The notes below the pieces were generated by a model. That model did not search any database. It saw only the letters and a list, made by a program, of their open reading frames with translations, and was not told the origin of the DNA. The position numbers and the translations under genes are program-made. From positions 1-32,658 of the IMG/VR virus record IMGVR_UViG_3300028392_000199: a DNA stretch of 32,658 nt; one strand, written 5' to 3'. This DNA is from a virus. The stretch's first letter is position 1. Each line of letters opens with the position of its first letter. This document shows positions 1,982-5,932 of this stretch, piece after piece.

Positions 1982-2728
1982 TTAGTTTAACCCAGTTTTA
2001 AGTTTGTATATTTTCAGTAAAGACAAAAACATTTCGTAACCATCACGAATGGCTTGCTCCGTATGCTCATAGATAGCAACCTCACCAGTTTCACCATTAA
2101 TGTATACATTGGCGCATCGTGCTGTAGGGGCTAAAACCTCTCTGTAGGCTGCTAATTGTAGGGTATGCTCTAGGTAGGGTGTTAAATCACCAGGGGATTT
2201 TTCTGTCGTCTTAAAGTCAATTACTACCCCACCATGCTCGCCTTTTGCTTTGCAATATAAATCGCACTTACCGCCATAGCCTTCTTGATTAACTAGACTC
2301 TGTTCTGCAATCCATAACTGTGGCCCAAAATGAGCCGTGATAGCGTCATCTACTTTGCGGACATAGGTAGGCATCTCAGGTAGGTATTCTTGGTTGTAGA
2401 AGCTCTCTATAAAGTCATGTATAAGAGTTCCCCTAGTCATTGCTTCTTGGGATTTCCTCTTGGACAAGTCCATAACTCGGCTAATGTATTCTTTTTCCTC
2501 TTCACCTTCTTGGCGTGGATTTTCAGCAGCAGCTTTAATAGCCTCTGTTTGAAGCCATGTATTTAAACCATCTTTAGATAGCTGCCCATTGATAGTGGAC
2601 ACAGATGGCACTAAAGTACCAGGCGCTGCTTTAGCATCACGCAAGGTTACTGAGCGTTCCTTGCCGTTTTTACCAGTCATGGTGTAGCGTGGTGCGCCAG
2701 TTAAGGCGCAGTACCAATGTTGTGACAT
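1982..2728 (-). CDS. PD-(D/E)XK exonuclease (RecB/Cas4-like fold)
   Basis: 248 residues with the ordered motifs of a RecB-type nuclease: His in GTLIHDFIE (H104), Asp in YGGKCDLY (D156), D-x-K in VVIDFKTTEK (D171, K173), and the QLAAY motif at 191-195. These residues bind metal and cut DNA. In phages this nuclease usually resects double-stranded ends for a partner annealing protein, and the ERF gene lies three genes upstream in the same operon, so a two-component recombination role fits. The start is well marked by CAAAGGGGAAAAT before ATG. The gene is followed by a 353-nt structured non-coding stretch. Confidence 0.88.
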   Translation of the reverse strand: MSQHWYCALTGAPRYTMTGKNGKERSVTLRDAKAAPGTLVPSVSTINGQLSKDGLNTWLQTEAIKAAAENPRQEGEEEKEYISRVMDLSKRKSQEAMTRGTLIHDFIESFYNQEYLPEMPTYVRKVDDAITAHFGPQLWIAEQSLVNQEGYGGKCDLYCKAKGEHGGVVIDFKTTEKSPGDLTPYLEHTLQLAAYREVLAPTARCANVYINGETGEVAIYEHTEQAIRDGYEMFLSLLKIYKLKTGLN

Positions 2729-2747
2729 ATTTTCCCCTTTGTACTGC

Positions 2748-2945
2748 TTAATTAAGTAATTCTAAAATTGCTTCCCTGTCTGTGGTATTTAAACAACAAT
2801 CAGCACAAACCCTAATAACATCTTGAAGTACGGCAGCTAAGTCATTGACCTCAAACGCTATTAACTGTCTTTCTTCATCCACTCCAAATGGTTCTGTAGA
2901 AATCCTGGCTTTGTCGCCAATAACATCTTTGATTTGACTTAGCAT
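2748..2945 (-). CDS. Hypothetical acidic protein, 65 aa
   Basis: MLSQIKDVIGDKARISTEPF at the N-terminus; the C-terminal half is helical and carries three cysteines (VIRVCADCCLNTTDREAIL). The ATG at 2945 is preferred over the one at 2951 because AGGAG lies six bases before it and touches the earlier one. It sits between the SSB-like gene (9-base gap) and the exonuclease gene in the recombination operon. A link to recombination is likely from context only; no family recognised. Confidence 0.6.
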   Translation of the reverse strand: MLSQIKDVIGDKARISTEPFGVDEERQLIAFEVNDLAAVLQDVIRVCADCCLNTTDREAILELLN

Positions 2946-2954
2946 ATCCATCTC

Positions 2955-3197
2955 CTAAAACGGTAGGTCTGAATCTACAATTTCATCAGACCCTTTAGGT
3001 GTAAATCCTTTGGCCTCTTTTTCTTTGCCAATAGATATGCTAAAGAATTTCCCTTTAGTGCCTTCCTTAACCCACGCAGATAGGTAATGTTCACGGTTAT
3101 TGACCATGATAGAGCCTGTATAGTCTGGGTGATTCTCGGTACTTTTGCGGTCATTTTTAAATAGTGAACCACTACCTTCTTTTGGTATATAAGCCAT
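2955..3197 (-). CDS. SSB-like small protein with DSDLPF C-terminal tail
   Basis: 80 residues. The body, KNDRKSTENHPDYTGSI then NNREHYLSAWVKEG and GKFFSISIGKEKE, reads as a compact beta-rich domain found in small phage proteins near recombination genes. The last residues, DEIVDSDLPF, form an acidic tail ending in L-P-F, very like the D-D-D-I-P-F tip with which bacterial SSB recruits repair and replication proteins. Binding of single-stranded DNA and partner recruitment are therefore a reasonable inference. It overlaps the ERF gene by one base and is co-transcribed with it and the exonuclease. Not a full-length SSB, so the family is uncertain. Confidence 0.7.
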   Translation of the reverse strand: MAYIPKEGSGSLFKNDRKSTENHPDYTGSIMVNNREHYLSAWVKEGTKGKFFSISIGKEKEAKGFTPKGSDEIVDSDLPF

Positions 3198-3625
3198 TAG
3201 ATTTCCTTTGCTTTTACTACTGGTTTAGGTGACGAAGCGGCATTACCGTCATCGTCTGCTTGTACTACACCTACAACTGCTGCTACTGCGTATCTACGCA
3301 TATAAGTTAAAGCCGAGCCAGCGCCTTGTGGGTCTGTTTTGCTAACAGGCACAGACATTTCTTGACTAATCCATTCTCCAGAGGCGTGGGTCAGAATGGT
3401 AGTCAAAGACATAGACTTGTCTAAATCGGAATAAGTCCCAGGGAACTGAGCCACAGCCAAACCATTACCAGCCAACAAATCACGGCAAGCATCCCAAACA
3501 GACTCAAGGTCTGCATACTTACTTTTGAAAAAAGGGTTTGCAGAATCTTTTTTAGCATGGGTTAGTTTCCCTTGTACTATGGATAAGGCTTTGGCTAAGT
3601 TAGCAATGTTTTCAGATTGTTGCAT
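3197..3625 (-). CDS. erf: ERF-family single-strand annealing protein
   Basis: 142 residues matching the ERF superfamily core: KKDSANPFFKSKYADLESVW (residues ~25-44), the LAGNGLAVAQFPG segment, THASGEWI, and DPQGAGSALTYMRRYAV with the following VGVVQADDDGNAA. ERF proteins coat single-stranded DNA and pair complementary strands, letting phages recombine and circularise or rescue genomes without RecA. The protein is shorter than P22 Erf and keeps only a brief C-terminal tail. Start ATG is preceded by AAGGAG. The neighbouring SSB-like and PD-(D/E)XK genes complete a recombination set. Confidence 0.93.
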   Translation of the reverse strand: MQQSENIANLAKALSIVQGKLTHAKKDSANPFFKSKYADLESVWDACRDLLAGNGLAVAQFPGTYSDLDKSMSLTTILTHASGEWISQEMSVPVSKTDPQGAGSALTYMRRYAVAAVVGVVQADDDGNAASSPKPVVKAKEI

Positions 3626-4121: not shown

Positions 4122-4394
4122 ATGGACAAACTAAAACTAACCGACAGCGCCATTATTGACCTACTAGGCGGTACAGCAAAAGTGGCAAGGATGTGCAAAA
4201 TAGACAACGCAGCAGTATCTAATTGGCGTGTGCGTGGTATTCCAGCCGACAAATATATGTTTTTGGGCGCAAGAATAGAAAAAGAAAGTCATGGTTTAGT
4301 TACCAGGCAAGACTTGTTTCCTACTAACTTTTGGCTTATTTGGCCTGAGTTGTTAAAAAACAACGCTTTTGGTAAGCAAGATGAAGTTGAGTAA
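4122..4394 (+). CDS. Cro-like helix-turn-helix regulator
   Basis: 90 residues. Residues ~12-42 form a Cro/YdaS-type helix-turn-helix: LLGGTAKVARMCKIDNAAVS followed by NWRVRGIP, the usual recognition-helix and cap. The C-terminal part ends FPTNFWLIWPELLKN, seen in many small phage regulators of this type. It lies divergent from the leftward early operon, with two palindromes in the 110-bp gap, so it very probably represses that promoter and perhaps its own. There is no Shine-Dalgarno; a weak TTAAAC box about 10 bases before the ATG would give a nearly leaderless mRNA. The downstream gene overlaps its 3' end by 14 bases. Confidence 0.85.
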   Translation: MDKLKLTDSAIIDLLGGTAKVARMCKIDNAAVSNWRVRGIPADKYMFLGARIEKESHGLVTRQDLFPTNFWLIWPELLKNNAFGKQDEVE

Positions 4395-4935
4395 TGTAAC
4401 TATTTGCGCTATAGACTCAGTACAACCTGACAAAGCCAAAGCAGCAATAGAAAGAAGTAAAAGAAACATACAATTTGGTGGTGAATTAATGATTGACCAC
4501 ATGAGCATTAATAGTCGCCAAGCGTATAGCAAATTTATCCTACAAGAACTGCATAAATACATCCATACAGACTTTGTTTTAATTGTGCAATGGGATGGGT
4601 GGGTAATTGATGGAGCAGCGTGGCAACCCCAATTTTTAGACTACGATTACATAGGTGCTGTGTGGCCTTGGCATCCTGAAGGACTGCGTGTAGGTAATGG
4701 AGGGTTTTCCCTTAGAAGTAAAAAGTTGTTGGAATTAACCAACACTCCTAAGTTTGTTTACAGCGATAAAAATGAAGATGATTTAATCTGTCATATAAAC
4801 CGTGATTACTTGGTTAGCAATGGAATAAAGTTTGCCCCAGAAGAATTAGCAAGGTATTTTAGTTATGAAAGGGAACTTACAAATTTGCAAACCTTTGGTT
4901 TTCATGGAGATTTTCACATGAGTAAATACTTGTAG
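4381..4935 (+). CDS. DUF5672-like (glycosyltransferase-like) protein
   Basis: 184 residues from the ATG at 4381; a TTG four codons upstream is less likely. Ordered motifs: VTICAIDSV at the N-terminus, LIVQWDGWVI (67-76), DYDYIGAVWPW (88-97), VGNGGFSLRSKKLL (104-117), KNEDDLICH (130-138), IKFAPEELARYFSYE (149-163) and FGFHG (172-176). This is the layout of DUF5672 proteins, a family considered glycosyltransferase-like with a GT-A style fold; the WDG and NEDD acidic residues could bind a metal and a nucleotide sugar. Substrate unknown: DNA, virion protein or host glycan are all possible. It lies between the regulator and a structured non-coding region. Confidence 0.8.
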   Translation: MKLSNVTICAIDSVQPDKAKAAIERSKRNIQFGGELMIDHMSINSRQAYSKFILQELHKYIHTDFVLIVQWDGWVIDGAAWQPQFLDYDYIGAVWPWHPEGLRVGNGGFSLRSKKLLELTNTPKFVYSDKNEDDLICHINRDYLVSNGIKFAPEELARYFSYERELTNLQTFGFHGDFHMSKYL

Positions 4936-4944
4936 TAGAATCAC

Positions 4945-5167
4945 CTTCCTATCTTGAGGCTCTAACGACATACCAGGGGATAGGATTAAAAGCGCTACTG
5001 GGGGTAATGGATGAAACAGCGCAATATCGGTGGCGAAGCTAGTGCCGATTCCATGAACGACTGGTGGGTAAGCGATTCCTCAATGGAAGAACTTTGAAGG
5101 CAACCTAGGTAGGCTAGGTTCGCTCAAACCTCTTGGAAGTGGTATTTAAACAACTAGGGATAAATAC
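4945..5167 (+). ncRNA. Candidate structured RNA, ~220 nt, multi-stem
   Basis: This gene-free stretch holds a series of short perfect stems: TCCTATC (4947-4953)/GATAGGA (4979-4985); TTGAGG (4954-4959)/CCTCAA (5078-5083); GCGCT (4992-4996)/AGCGC (5018-5022); ATCGG (5026-5030)/CCGAT (5045-5049), extendable by G-T pairs; TTCCAT (5049-5054)/ATGGAA (5083-5088); AACCTAG (5102-5108)/CTAGGTT (5114-5120); and GTATTTA (5142-5148)/TAAATAC (5161-5167). Some exclude one another, but most fit one nested fold. It is more GC-rich than flanking non-coding DNA. No ORF of note and no tRNA, tmRNA or RNase P hallmark. The plus strand is assumed from flanking genes. Confidence 0.4.
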
Positions 5168-5239
5168 TAATAGCCATAACTATAAATTAAGAAGAAACTA
5201 AAAAGACTCAATAACGAGTAAACATTTAAGGGGAATTAA

Positions 5240-5551
5240 ATGAAAGATATTTTAGGTGCTTGTTTATTAGGCGTTGTATTTGCAGCTATGTTTGTTTACG
5301 GCATACCTGCTAAAGCGCAAACTTATCCAATGACTAACGCTCAAGGCTATAACATGGGTACAGTACAAATAAACGGCAACACCGCACAGTTTGTAAACCC
5401 ACAAGGTTACACCACTCAGACTGCTACAATATATCCTAACCAAGTCGTAATCACGACACCAAATGGTTATACACAAAGCGTTGTTGGTAACACAGGCTAT
5501 ACAGTTCCATCTAGCCCACCAACACCTATGTCCCCTAGGGTAATGCAGTAG
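5240..5551 (+). CDS. Secreted repeat protein with 20-residue repeats
   Basis: 103 residues. Residues 1-26 are a clear signal peptide (MKDILGACLLGVVFAAMFVY then GIPAKA, cleavage before QT). The mature part holds three repeats of exactly 20 residues starting at positions 33, 53 and 73, each with N/T-x-Q/N-G-Y near its start (NAQGYNMGTVQ, NPQGYTTQTAT, TPNGYTQSVVG). The end is Pro-rich. Such strand-turn repeats suggest a small periplasmic or outer-surface beta structure. AAGGGGAAT gives a strong Shine-Dalgarno. Exported phage proteins of this kind may alter the host envelope or exclude other phages; function unknown. Confidence 0.8.
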   Translation: MKDILGACLLGVVFAAMFVYGIPAKAQTYPMTNAQGYNMGTVQINGNTAQFVNPQGYTTQTATIYPNQVVITTPNGYTQSVVGNTGYTVPSSPPTPMSPRVMQ

Positions 5552-5560
5552 GAGAAAGGA

Positions 5561-5932
5561 ATGTTTGATGAATTCTGGTCTTTATATCCACGAAAAATTG
5601 CTAAAGCAGTTGCTAGAAAAGCCTGGCAACGACTTAGCGAAGAACAACAACTTATGGCTGCAAAAGCTATTGACGAACATTGCCAATACTGGAGCGCAAA
5701 AGAAACCGAGTTAGATTTTATTCCCCATCCTGCTACCTGGTTAAACCAAGAGCGATGGGAAGATGAATTGGTAATTGAGCCGAAAAAAGTAAAAGAATCT
5801 AAAGAATGGATGTTTAGCAATGAAGGCATTGAAGCTAAGGCTAAAGAGTTGGGAATTATTGGTAACGGTTACGACACTTATGCAAGCCTCAAAGCCAAAT
5901 GTATGAAACAGCTAGGCATCAGTGCGCTGTAA
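5561..5932 (+). CDS. Replication-protein-like (phage O/DnaT-type C-terminal module)
   Basis: 123 residues. The N-terminal 70 carry the pattern FDEFWSLYPRKIAKAVARKA, W-x-x-L, then PHPATWLNQERWEDEL (residues ~56-71). This F-W-x-x-Y-P-x-K ... P-x-T-W-L-x-x-x-R-W-x-D-E module is the C-terminal part of many phage replication initiators and helicase loaders, where it probably contacts the host helicase. Here it stands alone without the winged-helix origin-binding part, so it may be a loader without its own origin recognition, or a truncated relative. GGAGAAAGG precedes the ATG. Confidence 0.65.
   Translation: MFDEFWSLYPRKIAKAVARKAWQRLSEEQQLMAAKAIDEHCQYWSAKETELDFIPHPATWLNQERWEDELVIEPKKVKESKEWMFSNEGIEAKAKELGIIGNGYDTYASLKAKCMKQLGISAL

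Follow-up and report, generated by a model that had tools for sequence, protein, structure and literature searches.

The gap at positions 4936-5239 of the phage record IMGVR_UViG_3300028392_000199 contains a full-length member of the Rfam family RF02932 ('Betaproteobacteria-1'), an RNA of about 195 nt, and not a new family. In the window, which here denotes the whole analyzed stretch of 32,658 bases, an Rfam scan placed plus-strand positions 4946-5069 onto the entire 120-position model (model positions 1-120) with 91.8 bits against a gathering cut-off of 49.4, and this was the only match at the curated threshold anywhere in the record. Alignment to the model revealed that all three of its helices (P1, P2 and the PK3 helix) are present in the window RNA. 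Comparison with homologues further established that the conserved RNA runs from ~4946 to ~5139 and thus extends about 70 nt beyond the model end at 5069. In this additional 3' part (5070-5139), an AAGG linker joins a small hairpin A to a stronger hairpin B, whose 3' strand is GGCUAGG-like, and a tail follows. The whole part is missing, together with the P4 stem and the pseudoknots PK1 and PK2, from the consensus structure line printed for RF02932, which was compared as printed, while pseudoknot marking may exist in Rfam's own annotation beyond that line. RF02932 is an orphan family that has been catalogued without an explained function; no literature on it or on Betaproteobacteria-1 RNA was found among open-licence papers, and the word Betaproteobacteria is absent from PMC12286853 and PMC10085705.

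The initial annotation had suggested a structured and possibly new non-coding RNA at 4945-5167. Its structured, non-coding nature was confirmed by the RF02932 match together with compensatory changes in homologues. Novelty did not hold for the 5' part; 5070-5139, P4, PK1 and PK2 lie outside the printed consensus. The proposed span is accurate from ~4946 to ~5139, whereas 5140-5167 lies outside the conserved fold and belongs to an AT-rich tract (5140-5239, plus strand), recognized by its AT percentile across loci, that separates the RNA from the next ORF.

Judged by its gene content, the record is a phage. It encodes an endolysin (272), an exonuclease and an Erf-like annealing protein on the minus strand (1985-3625), a Cro-like regulator (4122), an ORF preceding the RNA (4369-4935) for which a PHROG search returned no match, a small protein following the RNA on the same strand (start at 5240), a replication-initiation protein (5561), and the terminase and portal (from 12965). 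Across the loci described below, one of 66 upstream proteins matched DUF5672 (Pfam). As initially noted, the 304 nt of the gap hold no plausible gene according to an ORF scan, the sole ORF of at least 40 aa reaching into it being an antisense frame of 41 aa (4846-4971), and a search of the 32,658-base window for tRNA and tmRNA likewise found none. A putative promoter-like site (TTCACA-17-TAGAAT, 4913-4941, plus strand) is located directly upstream of the RNA; with two such sites in 2 kb compared to 5.4 in shuffles, it constitutes weak evidence.

Homologues were collected with a conserved 18-base core pattern, which retrieved at least 120 stretches in viral contigs and 19 in genome contigs; an Rfam scan of 15 of the latter found RF02932 in 11. 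With the loci added by further patterns, one of which yielded none, 165 pattern places were examined, 142 of which were parsed through the 3' module and grouped into 72 clusters with one representative each. The 23 unparsed places include contig ends, pattern hits to ordinary DNA, and members that have diverged, e.g. L122 and L141. BLAST of the window region and its RNA against the phage collection yielded no match. Among homologue queries against the same collection, L011 matched Acidovorax phage AP1 and, marginally, a Vibrio phage (E 0.8), AP1 and L145 matched AP1 only, and L138 matched none. No match was obtained when the plasmid collection was searched with homologue queries.

Judging from these homologues, the RNA is a tightly folded core with stems P1, P2 and P4 and three pseudoknots, followed by a 3' module with hairpins A and B, a structured-RNA reading that is based on their compensatory changes. 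All features are on the plus strand. An alignment-free test, run in fixed windows on 69 of the 72 representatives (window locus left out), asked whether strands pair better within their own locus than with those from other loci; its four control pairings gave z values of -2.4 to 1.0. An aligned test comprised 44 pairs in eight helices for 29 close relatives aligned with the window. P1 (4947-4955/4977-4985) was paired in 260 of 260 cells, 105 of them changed on both sides (z 17.8), while P2 (4992-4996/5018-5022; z 17.6, 69 representatives) is nearly invariant in the close set. Every one of 145 cells was paired in both PK2 (5007-5011/5050-5054; 48 changed on both sides, z 12.7) and P4 (5026-5030/5045-5049; 35 changed on both sides, z 9.3), the latter enclosing a conserved UGGCGAA loop. 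PK3 (5038-5043/5060-5065) was paired in 174 of 174 cells (z 8.1), and one of its pairs is A-U in 11, C-G in 10 and U-A in eight of the 29 relatives with zero mismatches, the same being seen in 38 loci. For PK1, which joins the P1 loop to the P2 loop (4973-4976/4998-5001), 88.8% of cells were paired with two-sided change in two of four pairs; its z was 5.3 when tested loop-to-loop, but just 0.7 with crude fixed windows. In the 3' module, hairpin A (5070-5094, stem 5070-5072/5092-5094) reached z 14.5 with 84.9% of cells paired in the close set, and hairpin B (5102-5108/5114-5120) z 13.0 with 93.6%.

Taken over all helices in the 29 relatives, 96.9% of cells pair compared to 34-44% with slid partners, a control that favours the structure since the structure was drawn from the same family. 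Independent of that bias are the two-sided changes, which occurred at 21 pairs versus 17.5 in shuffles, with one of 500 shuffles as high. The covariation score was 0.473 against 0.191 (sd 0.009), and further pair types were not above shuffles (41 versus 45.2). Energy folding of the window region alone gave a modest signal (MFE -76.3 kcal/mol, z -2.25, matched by four of 100 shuffles), and the MFE fold was rejected as the true structure because it conflicts with the fold supported by homologue conservation. A long-range inverted repeat noted in the initial annotation (4954-4959/5078-5083) is present in the sequence, but its six pairs are all intact in only two of the 29 relatives (133 of 174 cells paired), and the pairing is best read as a chance match.

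The 3' module contains a direct repeat, with copy A in the loop of hairpin A (5078-5089) and copy B in the 3' tail (5129-5139), both on the plus strand and separated by 46-76 nt across loci (median 50). The repeat sequence varies between phages, while the copies match each other inside one phage. Ungapped best matches of A and B summed to 498 over the 72 representatives, compared to 331.5 on average and never more than 370 when partners were permuted 20,000 times; the match is weak (score 4 or 5) in 19 of the 72. In all 29 close relatives, the copies agree in the two letters that follow CC (TC 21, TT 4 and GC 4), and in 27 they agree in the two that follow GG, while the repeat middle differs constantly between the copies in the window group (AAU or similar versus UU). 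Equal ends combined with a constantly different middle argue against simple gene conversion, by which the middle would be evened out as well. Near-identical cores carry different A-B modules (L011/L131, L015 and L125/L074), and the module therefore seems to be exchanged as one unit. The repeats are richer in purines than the whole RNA (73% versus 59%; 53 of the 72 representatives, those with a score of at least 6).

A complementary partner of the repeat was sought within and near the RNA across loci, and also in nine of ten retrieved phage contigs and the window, a search in which repeats shorter than 9 nt say little. Own-versus-cross complementarity remained inconspicuous in the core (z 0.27), hairpin B (-1.69), downstream at 0-150 (1.35) and 150-600 (0.79), and upstream at 90-300 (0.74), while the z of 3.42 at 300-900 nt upstream could be caused by base composition. 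For repeats of at least 9 nt, no perfect reverse complement occurred in the contig pieces of G016, G006, G034 and G031. No convincing complementary partner was thus found within the RNA, nearby, or, for repeats of at least 9 nt, in these four contigs. That A and B covary toward identity suggests that the RNA either pairs with the DNA encoding it or presents a single kind of docking site twice; it is a constraint that searches for complementary covariation alone would overlook.

The RNA is located in early operons, with Cro-like, primase or replication-initiation genes close by. Among the 66 nearest upstream proteins, DNA primase (26) and Cro-like or repressor families (8) were represented. No conserved downstream gene was apparent, as none of the PHROGs was matched by more than four of the 66 first downstream proteins. 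The nearest large ORF is on the strand of the RNA in 40 of 54 cases upstream and 47 of 56 downstream, and a terminator-like site follows the RNA in two of 57 loci, compared to three and one in control windows. Based on these same-strand ORFs, rare terminators and unconserved downstream genes, the RNA would usually be an untranslated stretch inside a longer early transcript and tied to no single gene. The 80 nt past the tail are at a median 97th AT percentile of their own locus (70 loci) versus the 62nd for 237 other gaps.

This setting bears directly on the suggestion of the initial annotation that the RNA is a leader controlling the small, reportedly secreted protein at 5240. The RNA does lie upstream of this gene on the same strand with no same-strand terminator-like site between them. 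Against such a role, the first downstream gene varies among phages, and the RNA core is present in only 38 of the 80 loci where the 5240 gene has a relative, the other 42 having none in the stretch examined, some of them being cut by contig ends. We regard this reading as disfavoured and the most improbable of those considered here. Relatives with the 5240 gene that lack the RF02932 RNA have two other structured-looking untranslated types of ~250-300 nt in the same slot (type one in L272, L278, L282, L302, L304, L333 and L336; type two in L295, L303, L314 and L317), neither of which had an Rfam match in the three loci scanned for each. A short conserved hairpin-like stretch (GGCAGGCC ... GGCCTGCC) precedes the start codon of the 5240-gene relative in L313, L320, L332, L334 and L337.

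The mechanism we prefer, while holding it tentatively and at less than even chance, is R-loop initiation by the nascent RNA through pairing with the DNA template from which it is copied. The RNA would be made within the early/replication operon, with the pseudoknotted core holding loop A in place. As RNA polymerase passes the tail, nascent loop A would pair with the template strand at copy B and nucleate an RNA:DNA hybrid beside the AT-rich tract, and this R-loop may then prime replication or otherwise control the early operon in cis in the manner of ColE1 RNA II. Any repeat sequence would serve provided that A equals B, which could account for A/B identity covariation with no convincing third partner found. 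Consistent with this mechanism are also the AT-rich tract directly after copy B, the primase upstream in 26 of 66 cases, the replication-initiation gene at 5561 and the apparent embedding of the RNA in a longer transcript, given terminator-like sites in two of 57 loci. Purine-rich RNA is suited to RNA:DNA hybrids. On the other side, the differing middle of the repeat means that the putative hybrid would be interrupted, and DnaA boxes are scarce near the RNA (10 in 80 kb versus 43 in 599 kb elsewhere). Nor was a GC-skew shift seen across the RNA between co-oriented genes, the right side exceeding the left in seven of 19. The origin contemplated in the initial annotation may exist: several features fit a transcription-primed origin, the GC skew does not. 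With somewhat more reserve, we envisage a self-addressing RNA whose core presents an interchangeable loop equal to a site ~50 nt downstream, so that the nascent RNA could invade its own template and the R-loop could prime phage replication or switch the early operon, with the 3' module acting as a swapped specificity cassette.

We consider it just as likely as the R-loop that the RNA acts in trans. The core would in this case be a protein-binding scaffold in an RNA cut from the early transcript, while A and B would dock one diverging partner, either a protein of the phage or an RNA or protein of the host. The compactness and conservation of the core with its three pseudoknots, the dispersed copies outside phages (see below) and the other structured-looking RNAs occupying the same slot in relatives are all in line with this, and docking sites need not agree in their middle. 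It is less easily reconciled with the near absence of terminators after the RNA (two of 57), with nearest neighbours that include no linked partner gene, and with repeats that change between closely related RNAs. Moreover, two Paraburkholderia-linked phage-type copies have different repeats, which are thus not determined by the host alone.

A third possibility, which we rate only slightly below both the R-loop and a trans-acting RNA, and likewise as less likely than not, is a cis-acting processive antiterminator: the nascent RNA would bind RNA polymerase so that terminators of the early operon are read through. The early-operon position behind the Cro-like gene in the window, the shared strand with neighbouring ORFs (40 of 54 upstream, 47 of 56 downstream) and the unconserved downstream genes expected of an operon-wide effect would suit such a function, which leaves A/B identity unexplained. 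Furthermore, where some relatives combine the RF02932 RNA with an RNA that has a terminator, the latter is on the upstream side and not downstream.

A second structured RNA of ~135 nt was noted ending ~12-18 nt upstream of the RF02932 RNA in several loci (L007, L043, L065, L006, L009, L024, L097, L020 and others); it is absent at this place in the window. It consists of a TATAAT-like box, a 5' hairpin and a 20-bp terminator hairpin, with the loop of the 5' hairpin pairing to a bulge in the terminator. Its fold z was -5.7 to -8.3 in three examples, own-versus-cross pairing gave z 23.5 for the long stem and 9.5 for the loop contact (51 clusters, some perhaps other RNAs), and no Rfam match was obtained in 12 loci.

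In phages the RNA is mostly single, with one copy in 48 of 50 contigs and two copies in the remaining two, G010 (L041/L048) and G016 (L064), the copies of G016 differing in core and repeat. Among the isolates of the phage collection, one carries the RNA: in Acidovorax phage AP1, a copy lacking annotation follows the primase gene, and its repeat matches on inspection. Five of 399 Burkholderiales genomes passed the Rfam cut-off (seven at E 0.001), as did 11 of 58 genomes of Paraburkholderia, the genus of G052. Several Paraburkholderia copies sit between ordinary chromosomal genes, some intact-looking and some truncated, and ORF inspection of four such stretches revealed no common partner gene. 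A replication primer, as the R-loop mechanism may imply, would be odd for the intact-looking copies at these places. Dispersed chromosomal copies, some of them 5'- or 3'-truncated, were seen in G052, G316, G480, G484 and G506 (L203-L205, L224-L236 and L239-L249), and the same Paraburkholderia-type genomes contain a divergent subfamily of the RNA with short palindromes beyond the 3' end.

The dispersed and truncated copies, the identity between loop and flank, and flank matches that end at one base (query base 452) in nine genomes raise the idea of a small mobile RNA element, in which loop A would guide insertion and for that reason resemble the target site in the flank. However, hairpin B and the tail belong to the conserved RNA and not to the flank, the clean junction in the nine genomes falls within the 3' module of a copy that is truncated, and a clean empty site with both flanks was not found; we consider such an element very unlikely. 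Returning to the RNA as a whole, the partial catalogue model, the three pseudoknots and the identity-covarying sites together provide a first mechanistic handle on the RF02932 family.

Several known systems share individual traits with this RNA. A gene-specific leader or riboswitch goes along with a conserved downstream gene, which the 66 downstream proteins did not reveal. GOLLD and ROOL are larger orphan structured RNAs of phages and prophages, often located near tRNA islands according to PMC12286853. The RF02932 RNA is likewise an orphan structured phage RNA, but at ~195 nt and in a window without tRNA it does not fall into this class. The immunity RNAs of phages P4 (CI) and P1 (c4) have repeats in an early untranslated region that pair with a third complementary RNA segment. 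The direct repeats of the RF02932 RNA are similarly placed, but no third segment was found for them (core z 0.27; upstream 300-900 z 3.42). The put RNA of HK022, an early-operon RNA that makes RNA polymerase terminator-resistant, occupies a comparable place in a phage early operon; the RF02932 RNA is larger and pseudoknotted, and put is not known to have a repeat-identity feature. In the ColE1 RNA II preprimer, one loop of the growing transcript has the sequence of the non-template strand further downstream and is therefore able to base-pair with the template; RNase H cuts the persistent RNA:DNA hybrid, which DNA polymerase I then extends. In work by Masukata and Tomizawa from 1990, a G stretch of RNA II reportedly pairs with the template strand. 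The window RNA has a similar trait in that loop A repeats the downstream non-template strand at copy B, with different middle letters, and the region downstream has an AT-rich tract and lacks a GC-skew shift. Compared to ColE1 RNA II, the RF02932 RNA is much shorter, has ~50 nt between copies and is part of a phage early operon, and no sequence relation is claimed. Of RF02932 itself the window RNA is a member (91.8 bits) sharing P1, P2 and the PK3 helix, and to the model of that family, ending at 5069, it adds the 3' module with the identity-covarying repeat, P4, PK1 and PK2.
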